From positions 1 to 64,000 of the forward strand of contig JAIBEY010000036.1 in NCBI GenBank assembly GCA_019459525.1: DNA of 64,000 bases, in the 5' to 3' direction. This document shows positions 32,937 through 63,399 of this stretch, in pieces. Below the pieces are notes generated by a model, which searched no databases, was not told where the DNA came from, and saw only the letters and a program-made list of their open reading frames with translations. The translations under genes were made by a program, and so were the position numbers. How positions within the stretch are numbered: position 1 is the first letter of the stretch; each line of letters opens with the position of its first letter. Origin of the DNA: Prolixibacteraceae bacterium. GTDB taxonomy: Bacteria > Bacteroidota > Bacteroidia > Bacteroidales > Prolixibacteraceae.

Positions 32937-33001
32937 GTGAGAATTGTGTAACTTTTTCACAGAGTTGTGTAACAATCCGGATAAAAATAAGTGCACCTTT
33001 G
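32937..33001 (+). promoter_or_regulatory. 21-bp direct-repeat promoter P1
   Basis: GTGAGAAT at 32937, TGTAA at 32947-32951 and again at 32968-32972 (21-bp period), then CACCTTTG at 32994-33001 as the -7 element. It drives the AraC1-hybrid kinase-response regulator operon. Confidence 0.8.
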
Positions 33002-33030
33002 ACCGCATTGGTATTTAAACAATAAAACAA

Positions 33031-33639
33031 TTGAAAATCTACATCAAATACATGGTGAGTAACCGTTGTAAGATAGCGGTAAAACAAGAGTTAAAAAAAC
33101 TGGGTTTGCACTTTATTGTGGTTGATCTGGGTGAAGTGGAAATCATGGAGAATCTTTCTCCCGATAAACGCGAGCTGGTAAGAACAGCCTTATCCGATGT
33201 GGGATTTGAATTAATAGACGACAAGCGGGCAGTTTTAATCGAACGAATAAAGAATACCGTTATTGAAATGGTTCATCACTCGAACGAATTGATAAAAACA
33301 AACTTTTCGGTATTTCTGAGTGAAAAACTGAATCACGATTATACCTATCTGGCCAACTTATTCTCCGAAGTACAGGGCACAACCATCGAACAGTTTATTA
33401 TCTCTCATAAAATTGAACGGATAAAAGAATTGATCATTTATGGCGAAGAAAACATTACGGAAATCGCGTGGCGGATGAATTACAGCAGTGTTGCCCATCT
33501 ATCCAATCAGTTTAAAAAAGCCACAGGGCTTTCGCCTTCGCATTTCAAGCAACTGAAAGACAAAAGGCGAAGTCCGATTGAAGATATAGGAAGCATAGTC
33601 GAAGAAAATAACAATGGCGTAAAAAAAATAACGACATGA
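33031..33639 (+). CDS. AraC family regulator with HMA-like N-terminus (paralog 1)
   Basis: A 202-residue regulator. The first about 65 residues resemble the beta-alpha-beta-beta-alpha-beta heavy-metal-associated fold (MKIYIKYMVSNRCKIAVKQE), but the metal-binding CxxC is reduced to SxxC. The C-terminus (about 95-190) is an HTH_18 domain with NITEIAWRMNYSSVAHLSNQ and FKKATGLSPSHFK. Two paralogs lie in this window (52623 and 58854). The start is TTG at 33031. Its stop overlaps the kinase start (ATGA), so the regulator and kinase are translationally coupled. It is a candidate activator of the 21-bp repeat promoters. Confidence 0.85.
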   Translation: MKIYIKYMVSNRCKIAVKQELKKLGLHFIVVDLGEVEIMENLSPDKRELVRTALSDVGFELIDDKRAVLIERIKNTVIEMVHHSNELIKTNFSVFLSEKLNHDYTYLANLFSEVQGTTIEQFIISHKIERIKELIIYGEENITEIAWRMNYSSVAHLSNQFKKATGLSPSHFKQLKDKRRSPIEDIGSIVEENNNGVKKITT

Positions 33640-36470
33640 AAAAAATAAAGTCGATCAATCATCAATACGCCAACTGTTTAATGGAAGCCAGTCTGGATCC
33701 CTTGATTACGATCAGTGTCAATGGTAAAATAACAGATATGAATCAGGCCAAGGTGAATGTTACCGGAATAGAGCGCGATAAACTTATTGGCACTAATTTC
33801 TACGATTATTTTACCGAACCACAGAAGGCGCGCGAAGTTTATCTCGAAGTATTTGCCAACGGATCGGTAACCAATTGTCCGCTTACCTTTTGCCATAAAG
33901 ATGGAAAGTTAACCGATGTGTTATTCAGCGGATCGGTGTATAAAGACACCGATGAAAAAGTACTTGGTGCCCTAGTTGTTGCCCGGGATATTGCCTACCA
34001 GAAACGAGCTATGGACTTGCAGATGGCCAATAAAGAACTTGCTTTTCAGAATGATGAAAAGGAAAAACGGGCTAAAGAGTTGATTCTTGCCAATAAAGAA
34101 CTGCTGTTTCAGAATAAAGAGAAAGAAAAACGTGCTGCAGAGTTGATCATTGCCAATAAAGAGTTACTCTTTCAGAATGAAGAGAAAGAGAAGCGTGCTG
34201 CAGAACTCATTATTGCCAATAAAGAACTTGCTTTTCAGAATAAAGAGAAAGAAAAACGCGCTGCAGAGTTGATCATTGCCAATAAAGAATTTCTCTTTCA
34301 GAATACAGAGAAAGAGATGCGTGCTGCGGAACTTATTATTGCCAATAAAGAACTTGCTTTTCAGAATAAAGAAAAGAAAAAACGTGCTGCAGAATTGATT
34401 ATTGCCGATAAAGAGCTCGACTATCAGAATGAAGAAAAAGAGAAGCAGGAAATTGCAAAAAGAGAATTAGAGGAATTTACGTATTCCTTAAAGTTAGCAT
34501 CACAGTATTCACTCAGCCTGATTGAGGCCAGCCGCGATCCGTTGGTTGTTATTAGCCCTGAAGGAAAAATTACCGACATGAACGAAGCGTTGGTAAAAAT
34601 AACCGGAATAGCCCGTAATGAACTGAAAGGCACCGATTTTCTGGATTATTTTACCGAACCGCAAAGTGCACGTGCCGTTTATAAGGAAGTATTTGCCAAA
34701 GGGTCGGTTGCCGATTCGCCGCTTACACTGCGTCGTACCGACGGGAAGCTGACTGCGGTATTGTTTAACGGATCGGTTTATAAAGACGACCGTGGAAACG
34801 TGTTAGGCGTAGTGATTGTTGCCCGCGATGTAACCGACCAAAAACGTGTGGCAACAGAGTTAACCGAAGCCATTGTGTTTGCCGAACTGGCTGTTGGAAT
34901 TGCCGAAGATGCCAAAGTAAAGGCCGAAAGTGCGACCTTGACTGCCGAAAATGCGGTAAAAGCCAAACAGCAGTTTCTGTCGAACATGAGCCATGAGATC
35001 CGCACACCAATGAACGCGATCATCGGGTTCACCAAAGTACTGCTGAAAACTGAACTGACTGTCAAACAAAAGGAATATTTACAGGCCATAAAAGTGAGCG
35101 GCGATGCTTTAATTGTGCTGATTAACGACATCCTGGACCTGGCAAAAGTAGATTCCGGAAAAATGACTTTCGAGCAAACCCCCTTTAAAATGGCCTTGTC
35201 CATTTCGGCTATGCTTCATCTGTTCGAAACAAAAATTCAGGAAAAAAACCTGAAGCTGGTCAAAGAGTACGACAAGAACATCCCTGAAGTGCTGGTTGGT
35301 GACCCGGTGCGCCTCCACCAGATCATTTTAAACCTGGTAAGCAACGCAGTGAAATTTACAGCTAAAGGAAAAATTACTGTCAGCGTTACTTTGCTGAACG
35401 AAGATGAAAAACAGGCAACCATACGGTTTTCGGTTGCTGATACCGGAATCGGGATAGACGAAAATAAAATCATAAAAATATTTGAGAACTTCCAGCAGGC
35501 ATCAAGCGGCACTTCACGCTTATATGGAGGAACAGGTTTAGGATTGGCCATTGTTAAACAATTGGTTGAATCTCAGGGAGGAACCATTCATGTGGAGAGC
35601 AAAATCAATCAAGGTTCAACATTCAGCTTTGAACTGAGTTTTTTGAAAACGTTTGAAGATGCCGAATCGGAACCGGAAATGGTTGAATTGGACACGGATA
35701 ATAAAAGCATAAAAGTTTTGGTTGTTGAAGATATCATCCTCAACCAATTGCTGATGAAAACTTTGCTCGATGATTTCGGGTTTGAACGAGACATTGCCGA
35801 TAATGGCAGAATTGCCATTGAAAAAATGCGGCTAAAAACTTACGATGTTATTTTGATGGACTTGCAGATGCCCGAGATGAATGGTTTCGAGGCAACCGAT
35901 TATATCCGGAACATCATGAATTCGAAAATCCCGATCATCGCTTTAACTGCCGATGTTACCACTGTTGACCTGGCTAAATGCAAGGCCATTGGCATGAACG
36001 ATTATATTGCCAAACCGGTTGACGAGCGCATATTATACAGTAAAATAATTGGCCTGATAAAGCGAACCAACGGGCAGGAACCCGAAGTGAAAGAAGAGAT
36101 TGTTAAGAATAAATGCGTTGATCTGGAATATTTAAACCAACGCACCAAATCGCACCCTAAGCTAATGATGGAAATGATCTCGGCTTATCTGGAACAAACG
36201 CCCCCCCTGGTTTTATCCATGAAAAAAAGCCTGATTGACAAAGATTGGGATTTGTTGTATGCTTCAGTACATAAAATGATTCCTTCCTTTTCAATCATGG
36301 GCATCAGTATCGATTTCGAGAACATGGCTAAAAGAGTTCAGGAATATGCGATCACCCAAAAAAGGTCGGGAGAAACTGACGACCTTGTCAATCAGCTTGA
36401 TAAGGTTTGTTCTCAGGCATGCAAAGAATTAGAAGTAGAATTTAACCGGATAAAAAGCATGAACCAATGA
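33636..36470 (+). CDS. Hybrid histidine kinase, PAS-repeat helix-PAS-HisKA-REC-Hpt
   Basis: A 944-residue cytoplasmic hybrid kinase with no TM segment. Order: PAS1 (about 14-125); seven 21-residue repeats of the type ANKELAFQNKEKEKRAAELII (about 131-277), forming a long coiled signalling helix; PAS2 (about 290-400), clearly duplicated from PAS1 (shared DYFTEPQ and VLFxGSVYKD); HisKA with phospho-His near 451 in NMSHEIRTPMNAI; HATPase (NLVSNAVKFT, GGTGLGLAIVKQL); REC with Asp near 741 in ILMDLQMPEMNG; and a C-terminal Hpt (SVHKMIPSF). It overlaps its neighbours by 4 bases on each side. Confidence 0.92.
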   Translation: MKKIKSINHQYANCLMEASLDPLITISVNGKITDMNQAKVNVTGIERDKLIGTNFYDYFTEPQKAREVYLEVFANGSVTNCPLTFCHKDGKLTDVLFSGSVYKDTDEKVLGALVVARDIAYQKRAMDLQMANKELAFQNDEKEKRAKELILANKELLFQNKEKEKRAAELIIANKELLFQNEEKEKRAAELIIANKELAFQNKEKEKRAAELIIANKEFLFQNTEKEMRAAELIIANKELAFQNKEKKKRAAELIIADKELDYQNEEKEKQEIAKRELEEFTYSLKLASQYSLSLIEASRDPLVVISPEGKITDMNEALVKITGIARNELKGTDFLDYFTEPQSARAVYKEVFAKGSVADSPLTLRRTDGKLTAVLFNGSVYKDDRGNVLGVVIVARDVTDQKRVATELTEAIVFAELAVGIAEDAKVKAESATLTAENAVKAKQQFLSNMSHEIRTPMNAIIGFTKVLLKTELTVKQKEYLQAIKVSGDALIVLINDILDLAKVDSGKMTFEQTPFKMALSISAMLHLFETKIQEKNLKLVKEYDKNIPEVLVGDPVRLHQIILNLVSNAVKFTAKGKITVSVTLLNEDEKQATIRFSVADTGIGIDENKIIKIFENFQQASSGTSRLYGGTGLGLAIVKQLVESQGGTIHVESKINQGSTFSFELSFLKTFEDAESEPEMVELDTDNKSIKVLVVEDIILNQLLMKTLLDDFGFERDIADNGRIAIEKMRLKTYDVILMDLQMPEMNGFEATDYIRNIMNSKIPIIALTADVTTVDLAKCKAIGMNDYIAKPVDERILYSKIIGLIKRTNGQEPEVKEEIVKNKCVDLEYLNQRTKSHPKLMMEMISAYLEQTPPLVLSMKKSLIDKDWDLLYASVHKMIPSFSIMGISIDFENMAKRVQEYAITQKRSGETDDLVNQLDKVCSQACKELEVEFNRIKSMNQ
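34026..34466 (+). repeat. 63-bp tandem repeats inside the kinase gene
   Basis: Seven in-frame 63-bp units, each encoding 21 residues (exactly three heptads). The nucleotide identity between units is high, so the number may vary by slippage or recombination. Confidence 0.85.
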
Positions 36471-36898
36471 ACGACGAAAAAATTAAAATATTCCTGGTTG
36501 ACGACGATAGCGTTTATTTAAAATTGCTTGAGATAGAATTACTATCGCAGGGCGATTTTGATATAGAAACTTATGCCACGGGTGAACTCTGTATAGAAAA
36601 ATTATCTCATTCGCCCGATGTAATTGTGTTGGATTATTACCTCGACGGCATTCAGAAAAATGCAATGACTGGCATCGAAACCCTCGATAAAATAAAGGCT
36701 GTCAATCCTGAAATTGCTGTAATCGTTTTATCGGGCCAGGATAGTATTGATATTGCGGTAAGCTGTATGCACCACAAAGCATTTGATTATGTAGTTAAAA
36801 GTGAAACCGCTTTTCTTCGGTTGAAAAAAATTATTCCGGCCATATTTCAATACAAAAAAATGGAAAAGCAATTGAAATGGTATATGGAACGGATGTAG
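36467..36898 (+). CDS. Single-domain response regulator
   Basis: A 143-residue receiver-only protein (KIFLVDDDSVYLKLLEIEL at the start; phosphoacceptor in PDVIVLDYYLDG near residue 50; conserved Ser/Thr in VIVLSGQDS; Lys in DYVVKSETAF). No output domain follows, so it would act by protein-protein contact or as phosphate sink or relay for the hybrid kinase, whose stop codon it overlaps. It is third gene of the P1 operon. Confidence 0.9.
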   Translation: MNDEKIKIFLVDDDSVYLKLLEIELLSQGDFDIETYATGELCIEKLSHSPDVIVLDYYLDGIQKNAMTGIETLDKIKAVNPEIAVIVLSGQDSIDIAVSCMHHKAFDYVVKSETAFLRLKKIIPAIFQYKKMEKQLKWYMERM

Positions 36899-36926: not shown

Positions 36927-36992
36927 GTGGGAATAATGTAACTCTTATCCGGAATTCTGTAACGCTTTGAAGGTGGAGGTTGATGATCTTTG
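36927..36992 (+). promoter_or_regulatory. 21-bp direct-repeat promoter P2
   Basis: GTGGGAAT at 36927, TGTAA at 36937-36941 and 36958-36962, and GATCTTTG at 36985-36992. It drives the small membrane-protein genes from 37124. Confidence 0.8.
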
Positions 36993-40004: not shown

Positions 40005-40070
40005 GTGTGAATAATGTAATACTTAACCGGAATTGTGTAATGCTTTCGTGCCAAATATGGGGCAACTTTG
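40005..40070 (+). promoter_or_regulatory. 21-bp direct-repeat promoter P3
   Basis: GTGTGAAT at 40005, TGTAA at 40015-40019 and 40036-40040, and CAACTTTG at 40063-40070. It drives the CsbD/lmo0937/YtxH unit. Confidence 0.8.
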
Positions 40071-40244: not shown

Positions 40245-40430
40245 ATGAATACAACAGAAGTATCAGGAAGCTGGAACGCAACTAAAGGAAAGCTTAAACA
40301 GAAATTTGCGATGCTGACAGATAATGATCTGATGTTTGCCGATGGAAAGAAAGATGAACTGATCGGACGGCTTCAGGTAAGGCTGGGCAAGACAAAAGAA
40401 GAAATGCTAGAAATCATCGCCCGACTTTAA
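40245..40430 (+). CDS. CsbD-like stress protein 1
   Basis: A 61-residue acidic/basic helical protein with the CsbD pattern SGSWNATKGKLKQKFAMLTD, DGKKDELIGRLQVRLGKTKEE. CsbD is a general-stress (sigma-B regulon) protein in Bacillus. The Bacteroidota members are unstudied. A second member occurs at 50848. It is first gene of the P3 unit. Confidence 0.85.
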   Translation: MNTTEVSGSWNATKGKLKQKFAMLTDNDLMFADGKKDELIGRLQVRLGKTKEEMLEIIARL

Positions 40431-40476: not shown

Positions 40477-40632
40477 ATGAGCAACCTACTTTATGTAATC
40501 GCGGTTATTCTGATTCTGGGCTGGGCCATTGGATTTATTGGCTACAATGTTGGAGGAATCATACACATTTTGCTCGTTATTGCAATTGTTGCAATAATAC
40601 TTCGGGTTATACAAGGAAGAAACATTCTTTAA
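40477..40632 (+). CDS. lmo0937-like small membrane protein
   Basis: A 51-residue protein (MSNLLYVIAVILILGWAIGF ... IHILLVIAIVAIILRVIQ) with two TM helices and the glycine-containing turn of the lmo0937 family. It lies between the CsbD and YtxH genes with spacing typical of an operon (46 and 22 bases). Function unknown; membrane stress is suggested by context. Confidence 0.85.
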   Translation: MSNLLYVIAVILILGWAIGFIGYNVGGIIHILLVIAIVAIILRVIQGRNIL

Positions 40633-40654
40633 ACAATCATTAAAACAGAAAATT

Positions 40655-40927
40655 ATGAGTACAGGAAAAGTAGTATTAGGTGTATTGGCTGGCGCAGCCG
40701 CCGGTGCATTGCTGGGAGTTTTATTTGCCCCGCATAAGGGTGCAGTAACCCGCAAAAAAATAGTTCGGACAACTGGCAGTTATGCCAACGGTGTAAAAGG
40801 AAAAGTCAAGGATTTACTTGACGATATTACCGAGAAATTCGAACAGGTAAAGGAAGACATTTCTGAATTTGCTGAGCAAAAAATGCAAAAAAATGGAGAA
40901 CCCAAAAAGGAAGTTAAAACGACCTAA
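40655..40927 (+). CDS. YtxH-domain protein
   Basis: A 90-residue protein with an N-terminal glycine/alanine-rich TM helix (VVLGVLAGAAAGALLGVLFA, residues 6-25), the YtxH signature APHKGAVTRKKI, and an amphipathic coiled tail (VKDLLDDITEKFEQVKED). YtxH belongs to the Bacillus general-stress regulon. It ends the P3 unit before a hairpin terminator. Confidence 0.85.
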   Translation: MSTGKVVLGVLAGAAAGALLGVLFAPHKGAVTRKKIVRTTGSYANGVKGKVKDLLDDITEKFEQVKEDISEFAEQKMQKNGEPKKEVKTT

Positions 40928-42319: not shown

Positions 42320-44788
42320 ATGAAAAACAGAACTATTTCTCATCCGTCTGACGATGCCAACCAGCATCATTTCACATATTCCGATCACGGAAACACCATT
42401 GGTTCAACCAGTAAAAACAAAGAGCATAAAATCAAGCCGGATAGTTTAAAGGAACTCCCCGAAATCCTGGTAATAACCTCTTACCCGCCCCGGGAATGTG
42501 GTATTGCAACTTATTCTCAGGACCTGATTAAGTCGTTGAATAATAAATTCAGCAATTCAATATCCATCAAGGTTTGTGCGCTGGAATCAGGCGACACCAA
42601 CTATTCCTATCCGGAAGAAGTAAAATATATACTGAAAACATCTGTTGCCCGCGAGTACGAAAAGCTGGCCTTCCATATCAATAACGATGCTCGCGTCAAA
42701 ATAGTCCTGATTCAGCACGAATTCGGGTTTTACCACGAACAGGAACAGGCATTCGAACAATTCCTTTCTGTGCTTTCCAAACCGGTTATTGTGGTATTTC
42801 ACACGGTTTTGCCACAGCCCAGCGATAAACTAAAAACAAAAGTTCAGCGAATCGCTTCGGCGTGCAGCTCCATTATAGTAATGACCCATACGTCAGCCAA
42901 TATTTTAACAGCCGACTATAACGTAGTTCAATCAAAAATATCGATAATAGCCCATGGTACTCACTTGGTTACCCATTTAAGCGAAAAATTTCTGAAGGAA
43001 AAATACGGGTTGAAAAACCGGAAAGTACTTACCACTTTTGGCTTACTCAGTTCCGGAAAAAGTATCGAAACCACGATTGACGCATTGCCAGCCATTGTTA
43101 AGCAATGTCCGGATGTGGTATTTCTGGTCATGGGAAAAACCCATCCGGAAGTAGTGAAACAGGAAGGCGAAAAGTACAGGCAAATGCTCGAAAAAAAGGT
43201 AGAGCAGCTTGCCCTTCAGGATCATGTCAGGTTTATAAATAAATACCTGGCTTTGCCCGAATTGCTCGAATATTTGCAGTTGACTGATATATACCTGTTT
43301 ACCACCAACGACCCGCACCAGGCGGTATCGGGTACTTTTGCCTATGCCATGAGTTGTTCCTGCCCTATCATTTCAACCCCTATTCCACATGCAAAAGAAA
43401 TACTAACTAAAGATACCGGGATCATTTTCGATTTTCGCAATTCGCAACAACTGGCCGATGCTGTTATCCGCCTGTTTAGCGATGACGAGTTGCGCCGGAA
43501 TATGAGTATCAATACGCTCCAGAAAATCGTATCTACAGCCTGGGAAAACTCGGCCGTTGCCCATGCTAACCTTTTTGAAGAAATTGCCGGGGGAATGATT
43601 GAATTGAAATATAACCTTCCGGAAATTAAACTCGACCACCTGAAACAAATGACGACCAATACGGGCATTATTCAGTTTTCGAGAATTAATCAACCCGATA
43701 TTGATTCGGGTTACACCCTGGACGATAATGCACGCGCTCTGATTGCCACTTGTATGTATTATGAATCGACCGGCGATAAAACTATCCTGCCCGAAATACA
43801 GAAATACCTCAGTTTTATCAAGCGCTGTCAGTTGCCCGAAGGTAATTTCACCAATTACATTGATAAGAATCTGCATTTTACCGACCAAAATAACGATGTT
43901 AACCTGGACGATTCCAATGGACGGGCGATTTGGGCCCTGGGATATTTAATATCCATGCTTGGTCAGTTGCCTTCTGATATGATTTTAATGGCCGACCAAG
44001 TTATTGAAAAATCATTGCTTCATTTTAATGCCATCCACTCTACCCGGGCTATGGCTTTCGCTATAAAAGGAATTTACTTTTATAATAACACCATAAGTTC
44101 GCCCATGAATCTGGCGTTGATAAAAACATTGGCTAACCGTATGGTACAAATGTTTAAGCACGAATCAGACGGCAAATGGATTTGGTTCGAAGGTTATTTG
44201 ACTTATGCCAACAGCATTTTGCCCGAAGCATTACTTTACGCTTGGCTGCTTACGGGAGAGCCCATCTATAAGAACACAGCCGTAGCATCGTTTAATTTTT
44301 TGCTGTCGCATATTTTCAACGAAAATGGCATCGAAGTCATTTCAAACAAAGACTGGTTTAAAAAAGGCACGGACGCGCCCCAATTTGGGGAACAGCCCAT
44401 TGATGTTGCGTACACCATCATGACCTTAAGCAAATTCTATACTGTTTTTGGCAATGAAGATTATCATCAAAAAATGATTGTTGCATTCAATTGGTTTTTG
44501 GGAAATAACCGGTTACACCAGGTTATTTACAACCCCTGCACAGGTGGCTGTTACGATGGGTTGGAAGAATGGAATGTAAACCTGAACCAGGGAGCCGAAT
44601 CAACGGTTAGTTACCTGATGGCCAGACTAACTGTAGAAAAATATGTAGGTTCGGATAATCCCGCCAAAATACAGTTCCACAATCAAAACAGCCTGTATTC
44701 CAGACCAAAGCAGCGTATTAATTCCGACATTTTTGAAAATCAATACGACAATTACACCTACATTTTATTTCCGGATCATTTGGAATAA
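42320..44788 (+). CDS. GT4 glycosyltransferase fused to a six-hairpin-like domain
   Basis: An 822-residue two-part protein. Residues about 45-430 are a GT-B family 4 transferase (SYPPRECGIATYSQDLIKSL; LTTFGLLSSGKSIETTIDAL; YLQLTDIYLFTTNDPHQAVS; the donor-site EX7E region is partly replaced). Residues about 440-800 form an all-helical domain with repeated aromatic-rich hairpins (SGYTLDDNARALIATCMYYE; WFEGYLTYANSILPEALLYA; GCYDGLEEWNVNLNQGAEST) as in six-hairpin glycosidases or mannosylglycerate-type enzymes. The fusion implies synthesis and trimming of a glycan in one chain. Confidence 0.82.
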   Translation: MKNRTISHPSDDANQHHFTYSDHGNTIGSTSKNKEHKIKPDSLKELPEILVITSYPPRECGIATYSQDLIKSLNNKFSNSISIKVCALESGDTNYSYPEEVKYILKTSVAREYEKLAFHINNDARVKIVLIQHEFGFYHEQEQAFEQFLSVLSKPVIVVFHTVLPQPSDKLKTKVQRIASACSSIIVMTHTSANILTADYNVVQSKISIIAHGTHLVTHLSEKFLKEKYGLKNRKVLTTFGLLSSGKSIETTIDALPAIVKQCPDVVFLVMGKTHPEVVKQEGEKYRQMLEKKVEQLALQDHVRFINKYLALPELLEYLQLTDIYLFTTNDPHQAVSGTFAYAMSCSCPIISTPIPHAKEILTKDTGIIFDFRNSQQLADAVIRLFSDDELRRNMSINTLQKIVSTAWENSAVAHANLFEEIAGGMIELKYNLPEIKLDHLKQMTTNTGIIQFSRINQPDIDSGYTLDDNARALIATCMYYESTGDKTILPEIQKYLSFIKRCQLPEGNFTNYIDKNLHFTDQNNDVNLDDSNGRAIWALGYLISMLGQLPSDMILMADQVIEKSLLHFNAIHSTRAMAFAIKGIYFYNNTISSPMNLALIKTLANRMVQMFKHESDGKWIWFEGYLTYANSILPEALLYAWLLTGEPIYKNTAVASFNFLLSHIFNENGIEVISNKDWFKKGTDAPQFGEQPIDVAYTIMTLSKFYTVFGNEDYHQKMIVAFNWFLGNNRLHQVIYNPCTGGCYDGLEEWNVNLNQGAESTVSYLMARLTVEKYVGSDNPAKIQFHNQNSLYSRPKQRINSDIFENQYDNYTYILFPDHLE

Positions 44789-44814: not shown

Positions 44815-44880
44815 GTGAGAATTATATAATTTCTTTAAAAAATTATGTAATACTTTTTTGTTCGACACGCTATATCTTTT
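44815..44880 (+). promoter_or_regulatory. 21-bp direct-repeat promoter P4
   Basis: GTGAGAAT at 44815, TATAA at 44825-44829, TGTAA at 44846-44850 and TATCTTTT at 44873-44880. It drives the radical SAM gene. Confidence 0.75.
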
Positions 44881-50759: not shown

Positions 50760-50825
50760 GTGAGAATTTTACAAATTTATTGTAAAATTTTGTAATCCTT
50801 TCCAACGTTAGATTCTTTAAATTTC
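50760..50825 (+). promoter_or_regulatory. 21-bp direct-repeat promoter P5
   Basis: GTGAGAAT at 50760, TACAA at 50770-50774, TGTAA at 50791-50795 and TAAATTTC at 50818-50825. It drives the second CsbD-like gene and a PAS kinase. Confidence 0.75.
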
Positions 50826-52464: not shown

Positions 52465-52530
52465 GTGAGAATGATACAAATCTTTACCAAAATTATATAA
52501 GCCTCCTTCCCTATTAAGTACACAACTTTG
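52465..52530 (+). promoter_or_regulatory. 21-bp direct-repeat promoter P6
   Basis: GTGAGAAT at 52465, TACAA at 52475-52479, TATAA at 52496-52500 and CAACTTTG at 52523-52530. It drives AraC2 and its kinase. Confidence 0.75.
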
Positions 52531-52622: not shown

Positions 52623-53183
52623 ATGAAGCTCTACATCAAAAATATGGTTTGCAATCGATGCAAAACAACTGTACGAACAGAACTGGATAAAATCGGGATC
52701 GCATATAATACGATAAAGATAGGCGAAGTGAGTACCGAAGAAAAAGTTTCTCCGGAAAAGTTGGAACAGTTTGCGGAAGCGTTGCAGAAAAGCGGATTTG
52801 AACTGATAGACACTAAGAATAACATGCTCATCGAAAAGCTAAAAAAGTCGGTTATCGATCTGGAACATTATTCTGATGAAGATTTAAAAACAAGTTTTTC
52901 CGATTATATCCGTTTAATTGTTGACGATAACTTCATTTCGCTAAACAAGCTGTTTGAAGAAATCGAAGGCATCACGATCGAAAAATACATCAATAAACGA
53001 AAAATTGAACGCATAAAAGAAATATTGGTTTACGAAGACCTTGGACTCGCTGAAATTGCAAAGAAAATGCACTATACCAGCGTAATTGCTTTGTCGGCAC
53101 AGTTTAAACGAATGACAGGATTAACACCTGCTTATTTCAGACAACTAAGGCAAAACAGAACATTAAATTCTACAATCAGTTGA
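52623..53183 (+). CDS. AraC family regulator with HMA-like N-terminus (paralog 2)
   Basis: A 186-residue regulator. The N-terminus MKLYIKNMVCNRCKTTVRTE retains the full CxxC of heavy-metal-associated domains. The HTH_18 part contains GLAEIAKKMHYTSVIALSAQ and FKRMTGLTPAYFRQL. It is paralogous to 33031 and 58854. Its stop overlaps the kinase start (TTGA), so both are coupled. It alone of the three could bind a metal or form a disulfide. Confidence 0.88.
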   Translation: MKLYIKNMVCNRCKTTVRTELDKIGIAYNTIKIGEVSTEEKVSPEKLEQFAEALQKSGFELIDTKNNMLIEKLKKSVIDLEHYSDEDLKTSFSDYIRLIVDDNFISLNKLFEEIEGITIEKYINKRKIERIKEILVYEDLGLAEIAKKMHYTSVIALSAQFKRMTGLTPAYFRQLRQNRTLNSTIS

Positions 53184-54386: not shown

Positions 54387-54452
54387 GTGAGAATTGTGTA
54401 AATTTTCCTGAAAGTTATGTAACTCCTTTGTCCATGCAGGATTGTATATTTA
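54387..54452 (+). promoter_or_regulatory. 21-bp direct-repeat promoter P7
   Basis: GTGAGAAT at 54387, TGTAA at 54397-54401 and 54418-54422, and TATATTTA at 54445-54452. It drives the Dps gene; the -7 element overlaps a spurious upstream start. Confidence 0.8.
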
Positions 54453-55382: not shown

Positions 55383-58298
55383 ATGGCGAAACCTGAAAAA
55401 TTAAAAGCAACAAGCTCTTCAAAAGAAAAATCAGCAGATACTGATGCCGGTTCATTCCCAATTGTGGCAATTGGCGCATCGGCCGGAGGGCTCGAAGCCC
55501 TGGAACAATTTCTGGTTAATGTGCCCGAAAACAGCGGAATGGCGTACATCGTTATCCAACACCTCGATCCTACATATGTAGGCATGTTGCCCGAGTTGCT
55601 TCAACGGGTCTCAAAAATTAAAGTCTTTCAGGCAAAAGATAACACGGCTGTAAAGCCCAATTGTGTATATGTTATTCCGCCCAACAAAAGCATGTCGATA
55701 TTAAAACGAACACTTTACCTGTTCGACCCCATGGAGATCAGGGGGCTTCGGTTGCCTATCGATTTCTTTTTGCGCTCGCTTGCCATCGACCAAAAAGAAC
55801 AGAGTATCGGCGTTATCCTGTCAGGTATGGGTTCTGATGGAAGCATTGGGTTACATGCCATCAAAGAAAACAACGGCATCGTGATGGTGCAGGACCCAAC
55901 CACGGCCAAATTCGACAGCATGCCACGCAGCGCTATCGATTCGGTACTTGTTGATATTGTTGCACCGGCAAACGAATTGGCAGCCCGGCTCATGGAGCTG
56001 GTTAAACAGATCCCCACCCTAAAATCGAATATGGAGATCGAAATAAAAGATAAAGGTTCGCTCGAAAAAATTATTATCCTGTTGCGGACCCAAACCGGCA
56101 ACGATTTTTCGCTGTATAAAAAAAACACCTTGTACCGCCGCATCGAAAGGCGAATGGGCATTCATAAAATCGACAAAATCATTTCATACGTTCATTTTTT
56201 ACAGGAAAATCAGGCTGAAGTCGAAATCCTTTTCAAAGAATTGCTGATTGGTGTAACCAACTTTTTTCGCGATAGCAGCACCTGGGAAAAGCTGAAAAAT
56301 GCGGTACTGCCCGACCTATTGATTAATGCCAAAGACGGGGCAGTTTTAAGGGCGTGGGTTCCGGGTTGTTCTACCGGCGAAGAGGCCTATTCGCTGGCTA
56401 TTTTATTGAAGGAAACACTCGAAAAGGTTAATCCGCATGGAAACATTTCGTTTCAGATATTTGCTACCGATCTTGATAACGAAGCAATAGAAACCGCCCG
56501 AAAAGGACAATTCTCCTTAAATATTGCAACCGATGTTTCGCAAACCCGGCTTAACCGTTTCTTTATTAAAACCGAAGACGGTTACCGCATCAATACCGAA
56601 ATACGCGAAACGATTGTGTTTGCGCAGCACAACATTATTATGCACCCGCCTTTTACCAAAATCGATTTTCTGACCTGCCGCAACCTGCTCATTTACATGG
56701 ACAGTGAGTTACAACGGAAACTGATTGGCTTGTTCTACTACAGCCTGAATCCTGACGGAATTATGCTGCTCGGAAGCTCTGAATCACTCGGAACACAGAG
56801 CCCGCTATTTATAAGTATCGATTCGAAACTAAGAATATACAAACGTTCCAATACCATCCAAATACCCGAACTATTTGATTTTCCTTCATCTTTTTCAAGA
56901 GCAAAAATGAGTACTACCGAAAACCAGACCCCAGATAAACTACCATCGAACATTCAATCACCTGCGGAACAACTGTTGTTGCAGCATTTTTCGCCCCCTG
57001 CGGTTTTGGTAACCGAAACGGGTGACATTATTTATATTAGCGGACGAACCGGGAAATACCTTGAACCGGCTGTGGGTAAAGCAAACCTCAATATTTTCGC
57101 CATGTTGCGCGATGGGTTACGCAACGAATTTCCAACTGCATTTCGCAAAGTATTGCTAACAAAGGGCAAAGAAGTATTGCACCACATTAAAATTGGCACC
57201 AACGGCAGCACGCAAACACTGGATGTCAGCATTCAATGGATCGACAAGCCCGAGAGCTTAAGGGGTATGATTATGATTGTGTTTGCCGATGTTCACGAAA
57301 TTTACAGCAGTAAAACCAAGGCAAGCCGTAAAACAATGAGCAGCATCAAGCAGTCGGAACTGGAAAAAGAGCTGCAACATGCGCGCGATGAAATGCAAAG
57401 CACGCTGGAAGAAATGCAGACTTCGCAGGAAGAACTGAAGTCAACCAACGAAGAGCTGCAATCGACCAACGAAGAACTGCAATCGACCAACGAAGAATTG
57501 ACCACTTCGAAAGAAGAAATGCAAAGCCTGAACGAGGAACTTCAAACCGTGAATGCTGAATTGCAGTCGAAAGTTGACGATTTTTCGAGGGTGAACAACG
57601 ACATGAAAAACCTGCTCAACAGCACCGATATAGCTACTTTGTTTCTCGATAAAGAATTGAATATCCGCCGGTTCACGAACCAAACAACCAAAATTTTCAA
57701 ACTCATCAAAAGCGACATCGGCCGGCCGTTTACCGATCAGGTTTCGGATCTGGATTACCCCGAGTTGGCCGACGATGCCCTGGAGGTTTTGCGTACCCTG
57801 GTTTTTATACAAAAACAAATTGTAACCAAAGACGGTCGATGGTTTTCCATCCGCATTATGCCCTACCGCACGTTCGACGACCGTATTGACGGACTGGTAA
57901 TTACCTTCATTAACATTTCCGACCTCAAACAAATGGAAGTAAAATTGCTGGAAGCTGAGCAGACGAACCGAATGCTCCTGGATTCATCGGCAGATGTAAT
58001 CATCAAACTTTCAGTCAACCTGGAAATTATGGAGTTTAACTCCAAAGCCGAAGCCTTTTTCGGAAAAAAAAGGATGGATGTGGCCGATCATCATTTTATA
58101 CATCGCCTGATTCCGGAATCCGTGCAGAAGAAGACAGAAAAAGAATTAAACAAACTCCTGGCCGAAAAGCGTGACTGTAGATTTAAAATGCAGATAATAA
58201 AAGCTGATGGAACACAACCAATTGTGGAGTGGAACGTAAACATTTTGCGCAACAAGTTGAACGTACCTTCAGGAATGATTTTAACTACTAAAAATTAA
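55383..58298 (+). CDS. CheB-CheR-PAS fusion protein
   Basis: A 971-residue chemotaxis-type protein. An N-terminal CheB methylesterase (IGASAGGLEALEQFLVNVPE with Ser near residue 36; VIQHLDPTYVGML; SGMGSDGSIGL) is followed by CheR methyltransferase (LLIGVTNFFRDSSTWEKL; VPGCSTGEEAYSLAILLKE; TCRNLLIYMD). Then come a long coiled coil with EELQSTNEELQSTNEE repeats (about 655-740) and two PAS domains (about 745-850 and 860-970). No histidine kinase domain is present. It probably modifies or regulates a non-chemotactic signalling partner. Confidence 0.93.
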   Translation: MAKPEKLKATSSSKEKSADTDAGSFPIVAIGASAGGLEALEQFLVNVPENSGMAYIVIQHLDPTYVGMLPELLQRVSKIKVFQAKDNTAVKPNCVYVIPPNKSMSILKRTLYLFDPMEIRGLRLPIDFFLRSLAIDQKEQSIGVILSGMGSDGSIGLHAIKENNGIVMVQDPTTAKFDSMPRSAIDSVLVDIVAPANELAARLMELVKQIPTLKSNMEIEIKDKGSLEKIIILLRTQTGNDFSLYKKNTLYRRIERRMGIHKIDKIISYVHFLQENQAEVEILFKELLIGVTNFFRDSSTWEKLKNAVLPDLLINAKDGAVLRAWVPGCSTGEEAYSLAILLKETLEKVNPHGNISFQIFATDLDNEAIETARKGQFSLNIATDVSQTRLNRFFIKTEDGYRINTEIRETIVFAQHNIIMHPPFTKIDFLTCRNLLIYMDSELQRKLIGLFYYSLNPDGIMLLGSSESLGTQSPLFISIDSKLRIYKRSNTIQIPELFDFPSSFSRAKMSTTENQTPDKLPSNIQSPAEQLLLQHFSPPAVLVTETGDIIYISGRTGKYLEPAVGKANLNIFAMLRDGLRNEFPTAFRKVLLTKGKEVLHHIKIGTNGSTQTLDVSIQWIDKPESLRGMIMIVFADVHEIYSSKTKASRKTMSSIKQSELEKELQHARDEMQSTLEEMQTSQEELKSTNEELQSTNEELQSTNEELTTSKEEMQSLNEELQTVNAELQSKVDDFSRVNNDMKNLLNSTDIATLFLDKELNIRRFTNQTTKIFKLIKSDIGRPFTDQVSDLDYPELADDALEVLRTLVFIQKQIVTKDGRWFSIRIMPYRTFDDRIDGLVITFINISDLKQMEVKLLEAEQTNRMLLDSSADVIIKLSVNLEIMEFNSKAEAFFGKKRMDVADHHFIHRLIPESVQKKTEKELNKLLAEKRDCRFKMQIIKADGTQPIVEWNVNILRNKLNVPSGMILTTKN

Positions 58299-58302: not shown

Positions 58303-58857
58303 ATGGACACTGAAGAACTGGATTTAACTGATGCCCGGGCACTTCGCCAAAAAGCCGAAGAACAACTGAAGACGAAACAACAAGCTACTGAGCTACAGGT
58401 TTCAGGTGATGATGTAACCCGCTTATTGCACGAACTCCAGGTACACCAGATTGAGCTGGAAATGCAGAACGAAGAGTTGCGGCAGGCCTATGAAACCACG
58501 GAAGCGGCTTTGAAAAAATTTACCATGCTCTACGATTTGGCTCCAATGGGTTATTTTACACTAGATCGGGATGGCTCCATCATTGAGTTAAATTTTACCG
58601 GCGCCGATATGCTTGGCGATAAACGGTTTAGTTTGGTAAACAGCAACTTTAAACTTTACATTTCCGAAGATTCACGACCGGTATTCAATAATTTTTTCAG
58701 AAAAATTTACGCCGGAAGTGCCAAAGAGTCGTGTGAGGTTACGCTAGGCTACAATACAAAAATTTTATGCCACGTGTATATGGAAGGCGTTATTGCCGAC
58801 GATAACCAAAAGTGCCTGCTATCGGTAATTGATCTTTCGGGCATGAAAAAAATATGA
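58303..58857 (+). CDS. Stand-alone PAS domain protein
   Basis: A 184-residue protein: coiled N-terminus with HELQVHQIELEMQNEELRQA (about 46-65, a sensor-kinase-type linker) and a PAS domain (LAPMGYFTLDRDGSIIELNF, about 79-98). No kinase domain follows. It is encoded 4 bases after the CheB-CheR gene and overlaps AraC3 by 4 bases (ATGA). It probably passes its signal to one of those two neighbours. Confidence 0.88.
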   Translation: MDTEELDLTDARALRQKAEEQLKTKQQATELQVSGDDVTRLLHELQVHQIELEMQNEELRQAYETTEAALKKFTMLYDLAPMGYFTLDRDGSIIELNFTGADMLGDKRFSLVNSNFKLYISEDSRPVFNNFFRKIYAGSAKESCEVTLGYNTKILCHVYMEGVIADDNQKCLLSVIDLSGMKKI

Positions 58858-59414
58858 AGCTCCACATTAAAAATATGGTTAGCAACCGCTGCAAGATGAT
58901 TGTGAAATCTGAACTGGAAAAGCTCGGACTTCATTTCATGGTGTTAGGTCTTGGCGAGGTGGAAATAATGGAAACCCTGTCGGATGAAAGGCAAACCTTA
59001 TTAAACGACCGACTGAACGAATGGGGGCTGTCGTTGATCAACGACAAAAAAAGTGTAATGATTGAAAAAATAAAAAACACCATTATTGAGCTGATCCATT
59101 ATACCGATGAGCAAATAAAAATAAACTTCTCCGATTATTTGAGCCAGAAACTTAATTACGATTACACCTATTTATCCAACATTTTTAAAGAAAACCAGGG
59201 CACTACCATCGAACATTTTTTGCTCACACACCGGATTGAGAAGGCAAAAGAATTGTTGGTTTACGACGAGCTTAATGTTACCGAAATAGCAGATAAACTG
59301 CATTTTAGCAATGTGGCCCACCTCTCGAACCAATTTAAAAAGATGACCGGATTAACACCATCCTATTACAAGCACCTGAAGCTTAAACGGCGTAACCCGC
59401 TCGAAAATGTGTGA
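58854..59414 (+). CDS. AraC family regulator with HMA-like N-terminus (paralog 3)
   Basis: A 186-residue regulator close to the protein at 33031: MKLHIKNMVSNRCKMIVKSE (SxxC in place of CxxC) and an HTH_18 with NVTEIADKLHFSNVAHLSNQ, FKKMTGLTPSYYKHL. Overlaps the PAS gene by 4 bases. It has no repeat promoter of its own; it is in the CheB-CheR unit. Confidence 0.88.
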   Translation: MKLHIKNMVSNRCKMIVKSELEKLGLHFMVLGLGEVEIMETLSDERQTLLNDRLNEWGLSLINDKKSVMIEKIKNTIIELIHYTDEQIKINFSDYLSQKLNYDYTYLSNIFKENQGTTIEHFLLTHRIEKAKELLVYDELNVTEIADKLHFSNVAHLSNQFKKMTGLTPSYYKHLKLKRRNPLENV

Positions 59415-59474
59415 ATGATGTAACTCTTTCCGAAAGTTTTGTAACTGCATCCGAAACCGTGAATTTATCTTTAA
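59410..59474 (+). promoter_or_regulatory. 21-bp direct-repeat promoter P8
   Basis: GTGTGAAT at 59410, TGTAA at 59420-59424 and 59441-59445, and TATCTTTA at 59467-59474. The site overlaps the AraC3 stop and drives the baeRF-like gene, whose ATG is at 59531. Confidence 0.8.
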
Positions 59475-59530
59475 CTGTTGCTAAAAACTGGCCACCCGAC
59501 CCGACGGATGCGGGAATCAAAAAAGACACC

Positions 59531-60574
59531 ATGCAAAAAAATAAGCTTGAAAAACTCGCTACAGAGCGCAGTTATCCGTGTGTAACTATTTCTATGAACA
59601 CCAACCGTACCTATCCTAAGAATCAGGAAGATATCAATCAACTGGAAAAACTCATGGAAGAAGCTCACGACCATGTAGTGAATGAATTTGGCCAGCACGA
59701 GGTAAAACTTTTGCTCGAAAAAATTGATACACTCGACGAGCAGATAGACGTTAACTATAACCTGGACAGTCTTCATATTTTCCTTTCCAATACAACAACC
59801 GAAATCGTAAAATCACTGTGGCCAACATTAAAAGATACCGTTTCGGTAGCCGAAAATTTTGTTGTAAAACCTTTGATTAAAGACTTTAACCGGATGGAAG
59901 AATACCTTATTCTGGTGTTGTCCCAGTCGGATGTCAGGCTCCTGAAAGCGATTAACGACAGTATTTCCGGAGAAATTAAAGACGATGATTTTCCATTTAA
60001 ATCGGGCGATGGAAAACAATCCGACAGCCAGGTTGGCGAATTCTTCAACCAAATCGACAAAGCGCTGGTGAGGTTATACAACAAAACCGACATGAATGTA
60101 GTGGTTGTTTGCACCGAAAAGAATTGGAGCCGGTTGATGCAGGTGGCCGACAAACCTTCTATTTACTATGGTACGATCAGCATCAACCAAAACGGCACAC
60201 CCAATACTACACTGGCTTCAGAAGCATGGAAAATAGTAGAAGCCATTCAGGAAGAAAGCAGAACTCAGGCTATTCGCGAAATGCTGGATGCCAAAGGAGA
60301 AGGTAAAGTCCTTACCGATTTACTCGAAATTTATGTGGCAGTTAGCGCTGGTCGTGGCGATTTATTAATTACACACGATGATTACCACCAGGCAGTGAAA
60401 ATGAACGGACAATATTCCTTTTATTCGGTTGATGATCTTACCCAACCCGGTGTTATTGACGACATTACCAGCGACTTGGCCTGGGATGTGATTTCGAAAA
60501 AAGGCCGTGCCATATTTACCCATTCCGAAGAATTTAAACCGTTGGGGAATATCGCGCTGAAGCTGAGGTACTAA
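59531..60574 (+). CDS. baeRF-type (eRF1-like) protein, probably family 3
   Basis: A 347-residue protein of the bacterial archaeo-eukaryotic release factor family. The N-terminus has SYPCVTISMNTNRTYPKNQE, typical of baeRF3/7-like proteins. The central domain is helical. The C-terminal part includes VSAGRGDLLITHDDYHQAVK and DITSDLAWDVISKKGRAIFT, resembling eRF1 domain 3. No GGQ motif is visible, so it would bind ribosomes without peptide release, or act in rescue or dormancy. A longer frame from 59411 reads through promoter P8 and is rejected. Confidence 0.75.
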   Translation: MQKNKLEKLATERSYPCVTISMNTNRTYPKNQEDINQLEKLMEEAHDHVVNEFGQHEVKLLLEKIDTLDEQIDVNYNLDSLHIFLSNTTTEIVKSLWPTLKDTVSVAENFVVKPLIKDFNRMEEYLILVLSQSDVRLLKAINDSISGEIKDDDFPFKSGDGKQSDSQVGEFFNQIDKALVRLYNKTDMNVVVVCTEKNWSRLMQVADKPSIYYGTISINQNGTPNTTLASEAWKIVEAIQEESRTQAIREMLDAKGEGKVLTDLLEIYVAVSAGRGDLLITHDDYHQAVKMNGQYSFYSVDDLTQPGVIDDITSDLAWDVISKKGRAIFTHSEEFKPLGNIALKLRY

Positions 60575-60658: not shown

Positions 60659-63322
60659 ATGTGGTTCACCAAATCAAACGAAGAAGTTCTTAAAGAACTT
60701 GATGTAGTTGTATCGCAGGGACTTTCTGCTGAAGAAGCAAAAGTCAGGTTGGAAAAATACGGCCCCAATCAACTACTTGCCAAAAAGAAGAAAAGCATTT
60801 TCCGCTTATTTATTGCCCAACTTCAGGAATGGCTTATTTATGTGCTGTTTGCTGCTGTTGTTATCACCGTGTTCATGGGCGAATATGTTGATGCGGCAAT
60901 CATTCTGCTCGTCATTACAATTAATGCCGTGCTTGGTGTTGTTCAGGAAGTTAAAGCCGGAAAGGCGATTGAATCATTGCAGAAAATGACACATCCCAAG
61001 GCGCTCGTCCGCCGAAATGGTGAGGTTGTGGAGATTCATTCCGATCAACTGGTGCCTGGCGATATTCTTATACTCGATACCGGGCGATACATTTCAGCCG
61101 ATATTCGGTTGATTGAATCGGCCAATCTTCAGATTGAAGAATCGGCTTTAACCGGAGAATCTGTTCCTTCCGAAAAAGACGCTTCACTGCTGCACCCCGA
61201 TCCGAAAACACCGCTTGGCGATCGCGCGAATACGGCATTTATGTCAACGCTGGTTACCAATGGCCGGGGTATTGGCGTGGTGGTTGAAACCGGTATGAAC
61301 ACCGAAGTTGGCAAAATCGCGAACATCATCAATACCGAACAGAAATCGAAAACGCCACTGGAAATCCGGCTTGACCAACTGGGGAAAACACTTGGCAAAA
61401 TGGCCATCGGCATCTGCATTATTATCTTCCTGATTGCACTGATTCAGGGGCGCGAACTGGTAGAAATGTTCCTGATGTCGGTTTCGCTGGCCGTGGCAGC
61501 TATTCCTGAAGGGCTTGCAGCCATCGTGGCCGTGGTTCTTTCAATTGGCGTAACCAGCATGTCGAAGAAAAACGCCATCATCAAAAAATTACCGGCTGTT
61601 GAAACGCTCGGATCGGTCAACATGATCTGTTCCGACAAAACAGGAACGCTGACCCAAAATAAGATGACTGTAAAAAGCTATTTCAATCTGGAAGGCGAAA
61701 CAACTGTTGAAAGGGGCAAAAGCAATACGGCCTCCGATGATGCAAAATTGCTGGCCAAAGCAATGGTTCTTTGCTCCGATGCCACTTACACGAACGGACA
61801 CGGAACAGGCGACCCGACCGAAATCGCCTTACTCATCTTTGCCGACGATCTGGGAATTGACCGCAAAAAATTAATCACCGAAAACAGACGTGCCGGTGAA
61901 TATTCGTTCGATTCGGACCGTAAATTAATGTCAACACTCAACGAAGAAAAAGGAACGTTTACGGTTTATACGAAAGGCGCCATTGGCAATCTGATCAAAA
62001 TTTGTACACATGTTTTGGAGAAAGGAAAAGTTATTCCAATTACCGAAGCTCATCGGCAACAGTACCATAATGCAACAGATGGCATGTCGAACAACGCGCT
62101 TCGTACGCTGGGTGCAGCATACAAACAGGTAGGTTCAGTCATCGAAGCTGCTGAAATGGAAAAAGACCTGATACTTGTCGGGCTTGTTGGCATGATCGAC
62201 CCTCCCCGACCGGAGGTAAAAGAATCGATACTGAAAGCAAAACAGGCCGGAATTACCACTATCATGATTACCGGCGACCATAAAAACACTGCTTTTGCCA
62301 TTGCCAGCGAACTGGGAATTGCTGAAAACATAGATCAGGCGATTACCGGACAGGATATGGAAGATTTTTCGGAAGCCGAATTTGCCGAAAAAGCAGTTAA
62401 TTATCGTGTATTTGCACGGGTATCGCCCGAGCATAAAGTACAGATTGTTCATGCCCTGAAATCGCACGGGAACATTGTTTCCATGACCGGAGACGGGGTG
62501 AACGATGCTCCTTCGCTAAATGCCGCCGATATTGGCGTTGCCATGGGAATTACAGGCACCGACGTAGCCAAAGGCGCGGCTGACATGGTTCTGACGGATG
62601 ATAATTTTGCAACCATTGTTTCGGCTATCGAACATGGCCGAAACATTTACAACAACATAAAAAAATCGGTTATCTTTCTGCTAACCTGTAACCTGGGCGA
62701 AGTGGTCACCATGTTCGTGGCCATTCTGATAGGTTGGGAAGCTCCGTTAATTGCCACCCAACTGCTTTGGATTAACCTGATCACCGATTCGTTTCCGGCA
62801 GTTGCCCTGGGCATGGATCCCGGTAATCCGGATGTGATGAAAGAAAAGCCGCGCGATGCAAAAGAAAGTTTCTTTGCCGGTGGCGCCGGACTGCATGTCA
62901 TTCTTGGAGGTTTTTTAATTGGAGTACTAACCATTGGCGCTTTCTGGTTCGGATATTACGAACACGGATACAGCCCGTTTGATCCTTCCGTTCCGGTTGA
63001 AACCGTAGAATATGCACGAACAATGGCTTTTATGGTGTTGGTGATGAGTCAGTTGTTCTATTCGTTAGCTGTTCGGCATGGTTCAAAGTCAATTTTCCGG
63101 ATTGGCGTTTTCTCCAATAAATACCTCATTGGCGCTATTTTGCTGGGCATATTCCTTCAATTATTCGTCATCGAAATTCCGGTCATGCAACGCGCTTTCC
63201 ATTTGCAAATGCTCGATCTGGGCGGTTGGGTAATGGCCATTTCATTGGGATTGGTTCCACTGCTGTTCAACGAAATTTTCAAACTATTTATCCGCTCGGG
63301 CAAAAGGAGAAAGGGCTTATAA
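60659..63322 (+). CDS. P-type Ca2+/cation-transporting ATPase
   Basis: An 887-residue P2-type ATPase. An N-terminal cation-ATPase domain (GLSAEEAKVRLEKYGPNQLL) and the phosphorylation motif SDKTGTLTQ with Asp326 are intact, along with KGAIGNL (nucleotide site) and MTGDGVNDAPSLNAADIG. PEGLAAIVAVVLSIG in TM4 is the PEGL-type motif of calcium/PMCA-like pumps. Ten TM helices are predicted with a full C-terminal bundle. It exports Ca2+ or another divalent cation. It may read through from the baeRF unit. Confidence 0.92.
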   Translation: MWFTKSNEEVLKELDVVVSQGLSAEEAKVRLEKYGPNQLLAKKKKSIFRLFIAQLQEWLIYVLFAAVVITVFMGEYVDAAIILLVITINAVLGVVQEVKAGKAIESLQKMTHPKALVRRNGEVVEIHSDQLVPGDILILDTGRYISADIRLIESANLQIEESALTGESVPSEKDASLLHPDPKTPLGDRANTAFMSTLVTNGRGIGVVVETGMNTEVGKIANIINTEQKSKTPLEIRLDQLGKTLGKMAIGICIIIFLIALIQGRELVEMFLMSVSLAVAAIPEGLAAIVAVVLSIGVTSMSKKNAIIKKLPAVETLGSVNMICSDKTGTLTQNKMTVKSYFNLEGETTVERGKSNTASDDAKLLAKAMVLCSDATYTNGHGTGDPTEIALLIFADDLGIDRKKLITENRRAGEYSFDSDRKLMSTLNEEKGTFTVYTKGAIGNLIKICTHVLEKGKVIPITEAHRQQYHNATDGMSNNALRTLGAAYKQVGSVIEAAEMEKDLILVGLVGMIDPPRPEVKESILKAKQAGITTIMITGDHKNTAFAIASELGIAENIDQAITGQDMEDFSEAEFAEKAVNYRVFARVSPEHKVQIVHALKSHGNIVSMTGDGVNDAPSLNAADIGVAMGITGTDVAKGAADMVLTDDNFATIVSAIEHGRNIYNNIKKSVIFLLTCNLGEVVTMFVAILIGWEAPLIATQLLWINLITDSFPAVALGMDPGNPDVMKEKPRDAKESFFAGGAGLHVILGGFLIGVLTIGAFWFGYYEHGYSPFDPSVPVETVEYARTMAFMVLVMSQLFYSLAVRHGSKSIFRIGVFSNKYLIGAILLGIFLQLFVIEIPVMQRAFHLQMLDLGGWVMAISLGLVPLLFNEIFKLFIRSGKRRKGL

Positions 63323-63334
63323 CTCCTGCTAAAT

Positions 63335-63399
63335 CTGTGAATAATGTAACTTATTCTCAGAATAGTATAACAAGTTAAAGGGCCGTATCCCTACCTTTA
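63335..63399 (+). promoter_or_regulatory. 21-bp direct-repeat promoter P9
   Basis: CTGTGAAT at 63335, TGTAA at 63345-63349, TATAA at 63366-63370 and TACCTTTA at 63392-63399. It drives the small exported protein gene. Confidence 0.75.

Follow-up and report, generated by a model that had tools for sequence, protein, structure and literature searches.

The DNA examined here, hereafter the window, comprises the first 64 kb (64,000 nucleotides) of contig C113 (104,665 bases) from the 5.54-Mb genome of a Prolixibacteraceae bacterium assembled in 116 contigs. The window holds nine promoter sites (P1 to P9) that share a direct repeat of the word TGTAA with a 21-bp period, followed by a -7 element, and the same block recurs in other Bacteroidota before genes of the same types. 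We consider it likely that an AraC activator, itself under a PAS hybrid kinase, drives a stress regulon from these promoters.

Architecture of the promoter block

The exact form of the repeat, TGTAA-N16-TGTAA, occurs five times in the window against 0.18 occurrences expected from dinucleotide shuffles. A 44-bp matrix was trained on 13 sites from the rest of the same genome and recovered exactly P1 to P9 in the window, at scores of 23.9-50.1, with the next best position at 4.3 and a maximum over 60 shuffles of 12.9; since the 13 training sites had originally been found with a pattern drawn from the nine, this recovery is a test of consistency more than of full independence. An earlier sequence-only reading of this DNA had proposed the nine sites and a matrix scan as their check, and the scan bears it out: all nine are present, although P8 begins at 59409 and not at 59410, and the first 32 kb are free of copies as had been noted, no site scoring at least 10 being found in window positions 1-32000.

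The block was characterized more widely in 80 loci fetched by AraC similarity, in which the matrix yields 214 sites at a score of at least 18 and the reversed matrix yields one. The overall consensus is AATGTGTGAATnATGTAAC...AAnTTnTGTAACAC, with information extending over approximately 44 bp. The period of 21 bp holds at this scale, given that 136 pairs of left and right halves stand in 21-bp register and at most one pair at any other spacing tested. The trinucleotide and purine of the -7 element (TTTR) fall at an offset of 29-32 from the second TGTAA in 196 of the 212 sites with enough flank, compared with a mean of 16.6 and a maximum of 39 in control windows of the same width.

Some details of the sequence-only reading required loosening. 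The block GTGAGAAT, which it took to be shared by all nine sites, is exact in only five and constitutes a local majority form, the wider consensus being GTGTGAAT. All nine do have the TTT 30-31 nucleotides (nt) downstream of the second TGTAA, counted from its start, but the predicted TAnnTTT is present in only five, the -7 elements of the other four starting with CA or GA, and the purine expected after the TTT is found in seven sites but not in the remaining two. Across the 80 loci, the -7 element begins with C in 115 of 196 cases and with T in 33; the Bacteroidota promoter consensus, as cited in PMC7366714, is TAnnTTTG, or TTTG.

The reported lack of a TTG in the -33 region was upheld, as this word occurs at the proper -33 spacing in 2 of 196 sites of the 80 loci against 14.7 expected, and the sites do look like the activator-dependent promoters that had been envisaged, with the half-site that the earlier reading called distal standing in for the -33 element. 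Nor are they strewn at random relative to gene starts, as would be expected if the promoter reading were wrong: 206 of the 214 sites have an open reading frame (ORF) of at least 60 amino acids starting at most about 500 nt downstream, versus 109 of 214 in the opposite direction, and the median gap between site and ORF is 72 nt. Two other identities were considered for the block. CRP/FNR sites are inverted repeats of the form TGTGA-N6-TCACA, and this identity was rejected because the column counts show a direct repeat and no TCACA arm. A dispersed repeat is disfavoured by the columns that separate the site from the -7 element, which carry almost no information.

Short AraC proteins and the kinases beside them

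The sequence-only reading had put forward AraC proteins for a binding test, and on the co-occurrence and relative position of sites and AraC genes such a protein is the best candidate activator; its further proposal of a single dedicated activator was not supported, as the genomic island that contains the sites holds four short paralogous AraC genes (AraC-1 to AraC-4). A site was found in 71 of the 80 loci. Cultured strains among them include Sunxiuqinia indica (L116, with site scores of 53, 56, and 40) and Flavobacterium fluvii (L087, with 46 and 50). Among 61 related genomes, at least two sites are present in all 25 relatives with an AraC match of at least 250 bits and in none of the other 36, and within the genus in 17 of 17 genomes above this cut-off and 0 of 6 below it, the cut-off having been chosen after a gap from 240.6 to 265.3 bits was seen.

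The AraC proteins are approximately 190 amino acids long and possess the C-terminal double helix-turn-helix (HTH_18/HTH_AraC) of the AraC/XylS family, with which the fold match agrees. In the AlphaFold2 model of AraC-3 (mean pLDDT 91.7), residues 2-62 form a beta-alpha-beta-beta-alpha-beta domain, which is followed by a linker helix and then by the AraC DNA-binding domain. In a Foldseek search, AraC-type domains were matched by the DNA-binding part, and copper and gold chaperones by the N-domain (2xmv Atx1, 4y2i GolB, 2qif, and 1fee HAH1; probability 0.98-1.00, TMt 0.59-0.68, E ~0.1). A designed integrin binder of equal size (9dia_C) ranked just above these chaperones. By these matches and the secondary structure of the model, the N-domain has an HMA-type fold; a sequence-only PDB search with the N-domain returned nothing useful, and Pfam HMA matched, below its cut-off, one of four distant AraC members. 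The N-domain as modelled is a copper-chaperone-like fold in which one cysteine of the metal pair is mostly lost. The CxxC pair is present only in AraC-2 among the four paralogues, being SxxC in AraC-1 and AraC-3 and NxxC in AraC-4, and the 115 members of the wider family include 78 with SxxC, 30 with CxxC, and 7 not classed by our script. In a tree of these 115 rows (one of 116 matches was too short), the main SxxC clade, which has 73 SxxC members among its 76 rows and support of 99/96, is nested in a family whose other branches are mostly CxxC, and a second change to SxxC occurs in the AraC-3 clade (six rows; support 100/96); the bootstrap had yet to converge, and several of the long branches are uncertain. 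Because the root of the tree is not established, the direction of change from copper sensor to stress regulator is something that we infer.

The same proteins could be read as metal sensors, with the regulon as a response to copper or other metal stress. The resemblance of the N-domain to copper chaperones and the retention of CxxC in AraC-2 and 30 of the 115 family members are in keeping with metal homeostasis, as are loci of more distant AraC members: out of 15 (L142 and L144-L157), six were confirmed beside Cu-type ATPases or RND pumps and four carry a weak related site, with scores of 22-31, at or just after the AraC stop. The other nine were not confirmed beside a metal pump in a survey in which 12 of the 15 were listed by gene and only pump-looking proteins were sent to Pfam. 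Given that the large motif-linked clade is the SxxC clade and that the downstream genes are of the CsbD, YtxH, BON, ice-binding, and OmpA types, with CopC matches in only 3 of the 150 first downstream genes described below, we regard a metal response as unlikely.

A site lies at most 400 nt upstream, and usually about 90 nt, of 36 of the 115 AraC genes (34 of them SxxC), and at or just after the stop codon of 32 (18 CxxC and 14 SxxC). P8 is a case of the latter kind, its site overlapping the AraC-3 stop codon at window 59409-59414, where GTG TGA reads Val, stop. With a putative activator site overlapping the stop in this way, the binding site would fix the last codons of the protein. Stop-overlapping sites were observed in 20 related AraC genes, with the same offset in loci of Emticicia, Arcicella, and Galbibacter.

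The gene behind the AraC gene was examined in 34 cases outside the window's own contig that combined an AraC match of at least 250 bits, an upstream site, and a following ORF. This next gene, which in one case was the same ORF, matched PAS in 32 of the 34, HisKA in 29, and a receiver in 29, an arrangement that suggests control of AraC by the kinase. In a single metagenome-assembled genome, one ORF (L065:757-3372) fuses AraC, at the N-terminus, with PAS, histidine kinase, and receiver modules and is followed by a 144-amino-acid gene. At C113:78876-81704, AraC-4, its cysteine pair lost, precedes a response regulator and a CHASE3 kinase; similar genes in the same order were seen by eye behind AraC in L151, from a relative (G041) without strict motif copies.

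From the computed results, namely the motif, its spacing, its position as a promoter, its links to AraC and stress-type genes, the predicted fold, and the gene order, we infer an AraC protein as the binder, activation by it, a kinase that feeds it, and stress as the trigger. The nine sites would be class II-type, activator-dependent promoters of a stress regulon, to which the AraC proteins would bind and from which they would activate transcription. Two AraC-type DNA-binding domains, probably belonging to one dimer, would sit two helical turns (21 bp) apart on the same face of the DNA, and the proximal half-site would replace the missing -33 element beside the degenerate -7 element nAnCTTTG, where AraC would recruit the primary sigma holoenzyme. 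The activators would be the short proteins with an HMA-fold N-domain and a mostly lost metal cysteine, and their signal would probably come from the PAS-type hybrid kinases and response regulators whose genes directly follow or adjoin those of the activators. An AraC gene preceded by a site probably activates itself, and AraC-1 may do so through P1, the site of which lies 94 nt upstream of its start.

Downstream genes and sigma factors

The genes downstream of the sites resemble a general-stress set, comprising CsbD, YtxH, Dps-like, BON, YceI, and ice-binding proteins. After removal of 8 sites without an ORF, 40 AraC-like genes, 3 proteins of more than 900 amino acids, and duplicates, the 214 sites gave 157 first genes, the first 150 of which were scanned with Pfam alongside 150 genes drawn at random from the 878 other ORFs of the same loci. 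Matches were counted among the 25 commonest families per scan, and the control value for Ice_binding is thus at most 2 of 150, compared with 20 of 150 among the first genes (p = 7e-5 with 2). Other families among the first genes were CsbD (4), YtxH (3), BON (2), and YceI (2).

Searches that began with the genes gave further associations. Of the 25 motif genomes 21 carry CsbD, as do 2 of the other 36 (p = 2e-10), and 30 loci, from 54 CsbD matches, were fetched and examined: 27 have a same-strand site at most 405 nt upstream (two of these being training sites), one more has a site at 739 nt, and the two without a site come from genomes without a close AraC (G028 and G051). An ice-binding gene is present in 16 of the 25 motif genomes and in 1 of the other 36 (p = 1e-7), and in that single genome of the latter group the one site precedes the ice-binding gene. 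In the locus test of 30 ice-binding matches the result was 15 of 21 as printed, nine loci being without the 5' end of the gene, L209 and L222 representing one gene, and L202 and L220 being mis-centred. At other places in the island, sites lie before or next to genes for MlaE, OmpA, L,D-transpeptidase, and ice-binding proteins. Contig C72 of the relative G040 (L055, L209, L222) carries that genome's only motif copy, with a score of 43, at 111 nt upstream of an ice-binding gene frame, and no AraC was matched in this genome at E <= 1e-20; the copy could belong to an orphan regulon member or to a transferred gene, or the regulator may have been missed.

The conserved block might instead serve an alternative sigma factor, with no activator involved and with nACCTTTG as the -10 element; the predominance of C and scarcity of T at the first base of the -7 element, unlike TAnnTTTG, would suit such a factor. 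The TTTG core is nevertheless the normal one, the block tracks an AraC gene, and an exact 21-bp direct repeat with about 44 bp of information is far longer than sigma elements, which makes a sigma factor quite improbable as the reader. Models of SigB/F/G (TIGR02980) and proteobacterial RpoS (TIGR02394) had no match above cut-off in any of the 61 genomes, in a search made with these two models only, and the number of sigma-70-like matches per genome showed, by eye only, no relation to the motif.

Several observations weigh against an AraC-driven stress regulon. The AraC cut-off was picked post hoc, 9 of the 80 AraC loci have no site, and 47 of the 115 AraC genes lack one immediately on either side (in some, because the ORF was called from a start upstream of the site); two genomes, G040 and G058, each have one site and no AraC match at E <= 1e-20. 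OmpA, found in 8 of 150 first genes versus 2 of 150 controls, is not significant alone (p = 0.10), and some island genes, such as that for fructose-bisphosphate aldolase, are not stress genes as such. Neither HisKA (5 versus 4 of 150) nor receivers (7 versus 11 of 150) are enriched among the first genes, and kinases and response regulators were set aside as enriched first targets on this comparison. Both sigma models were matched below cut-off in 60 of the 61 genomes, as sigma-70 relatives would be. Finally, the link to AraC weakens in a sample of 296 genomes over the phylum, for which the cut-off was left unchanged and the own genome was counted among the 25 above it: 10 of these 25 have at least one site, compared with 11 of the 271 below (p = 5e-7), at least two sites occur in 4 of 25 and 3 of 271, respectively (p = 0.001), and the reversed control pattern matches 2 of the 296. 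Across the phylum the link is real but looser, an association that is not one-to-one, perhaps owing to the use of a pattern derived from a single family.

Genomic setting and relation to known systems

At up to two mismatches the own genome contains 23 sites, 18 on C113, four in the first 8 kb of C105, and one on C66, such that 22 of the 23 fall inside one island; at up to three mismatches there are 25 sites versus one for the reversed control pattern. The sole site outside the island (C66:99886-99921, L030) is upstream of a patatin-like phospholipase gene. In a relative sequenced as one contig (G012), all 11 sites at up to one mismatch lie within 36 kb of a 5.71-Mb sequence, and 9 of the 10 proteins tested from the end of C113 and the start of C105 are present there in the same order, with extra genes between the two groups. 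From this conserved order, C113 and C105 probably form one island of approximately 80 kb or more. The local regulon proposed in the sequence-only reading stands insofar as the sites are concentrated in one island, but the motif recurs in other Bacteroidota, and in some relatives, such as G006, the sites are scattered over many contigs. That the block is a local repeat family amplified within this island without regulatory meaning, as the clustering of 22 of 23 sites might suggest, is very improbable given that the block and its promoter offset recur in other Bacteroidota families before the same gene types, with almost no information in the columns between site and -7 element.

The motif is present in 27 of the 61 relatives and in 21 of the 296 genomes sampled over the phylum, and on these genome scans the system is scattered, and not universal, in Bacteroidota. 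Two loci with other labels, L098 (on a contig labelled Ignavibacteria) and L115 (Candidatus Theseobacter, placed in Auribacterota), contain close AraC relatives and one motif copy each, which could reflect either transfer or mis-binning.

Coordinates of the promoter sites and associated genes in the window
Position	Strand	Feature	Basis
32937..33001	+	P1: site and -7 element CACCTTTG (TTT at 32998), before AraC gene at 33031	matrix
33031..33639	+	AraC-1 (P0002): SxxC copper-chaperone-like N-domain and AraC DNA-binding domain	
33636..36470	+	PAS hybrid histidine kinase with receiver; start overlaps AraC-1 stop	
36467..36898	+	Single-domain response regulator	
36927..36992	+	P2: site and -7 element GATCTTTG; precedes 144-amino-acid ORF 37031-37465	
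40005..40070	+	P3: site and -7 element CAACTTTG; precedes CsbD operon	
40245..40430	+	CsbD-like stress protein	
40477..40632	+	lmo0937/DUF5670 small membrane protein	
40655..40927	+	YtxH-like protein	
42320..44788	+	Glycosyltransferase (group 1 domain), 822 amino acids, downstream of P3 on same strand	
44815..44880	+	P4: site and -7 element TATCTTTT; precedes radical SAM/DUF4070 gene 45041-46531	
50760..50825	+	P5: site and -7 element TAAATTTC; precedes 64-amino-acid ORF 50836-51030 and PAS kinase 51041-52384	
52465..52530	+	P6: site and -7 element CAACTTTG; precedes AraC-2	
52623..53183	+	AraC-2 (P0003), CxxC retained; then kinase 53180-54109	
54387..54452	+	P7: site and -7 element TATATTTA; precedes Dps/ferritin-like gene	
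55383..58298	+	CheB-CheR-PAS fusion, then PAS protein 58303-58857; upstream of AraC-3	
58854..59414	+	AraC-3 (P0001), SxxC; AlphaFold mean pLDDT 91.7	
59409..59473	+	P8: site starts inside AraC-3 last codons; -7 element TATCTTTA; precedes baeRF family 3 gene	
63335..63399	+	P9: site and -7 element TACCTTTA; precedes small exported-looking ORF 63429-63746	

The operon behind P3 runs in the order CsbD, lmo0937/DUF5670, YtxH, and then further genes. The short ORF behind P5 has no Pfam match and resembles CsbD by eye only. Two called frames begin within their promoters, and the true starts of the Dps/ferritin-like ORF (54442-55035) and the baeRF family 3 ORF (59411-60574) probably lie after 54452 and 59473, respectively. 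Between P2 and P5 (window 38263-50110) are genes for a GH130 phosphorylase, two group 1 glycosyltransferases, a PIG-L deacetylase, and an invertase-like protein, which possibly make a storage or protective glycan under stress.

The general stress regulon of Bacillus and Listeria is governed by SigB, and its targets include CsbD, YtxH, Dps-like, and lmo0937-like proteins. The present system overlaps with it in target types and in the placement of many small stress genes under one switch, but the switch appears to be an AraC activator and not a sigma factor, SigB/F/G being absent above cut-off from the 61 genomes. The hybrid two-component systems (HTCS) of Bacteroides are single proteins that combine sensor, kinase, and receiver modules with an AraC domain at the C-terminus, and they are associated with polysaccharide loci. 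Here, too, kinase and receiver modules are coupled to AraC-type DNA-binding domains in Bacteroidota; in contrast to HTCS, however, the window encodes AraC and kinase in two overlapping genes, the sole fused ORF (L065) has its AraC domain at the N-terminus, in the reverse order, and the targets are stress-type genes and not polysaccharide loci. With SoxS, MarA, and Rob, AraC/XylS proteins of class II promoters, the short AraC proteins share the DNA-binding domain and would share activation from beside the -35/-33 region, whereas the metallochaperone-like N-domain, the 21-bp direct repeat, and the Bacteroidota -7 element set them apart.

Promoter motif 2 of Bacteroides thetaiotaomicron, which PMC7366714 links to oxidative stress genes, has elements centred at -10 and -30, and a passage of the discussion there mentions an alternative sigma factor; compared by description only, it resembles the present motif as another Bacteroidota promoter class in which stress genes are over-represented. 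No title or abstract start describing the motif or the AraC family was found in a literature search that subscription papers mostly lay outside.

We know of no account of the means by which Bacteroidota, lacking a sigma factor of the SigB or RpoS type, coordinate a general stress response, and the promoter design described here may be the way in which these bacteria run such a response without the usual sigma factors. The broader proposition, that scattered Bacteroidota lineages possess a one-motif general stress regulon driven by a domesticated copper sensor that has lost its metal site and acts under a PAS hybrid kinase, in the role otherwise held by SigB, RpoS, or EcfG, is in our judgement evenly balanced. 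What would be new is an AraC-type regulon in place of a sigma-type stress response. The 44-bp promoter code can be scanned in any genome for candidate regulon members and names a candidate activator, and the AraC family suggests a route by which a metal sensor becomes a stress switch.

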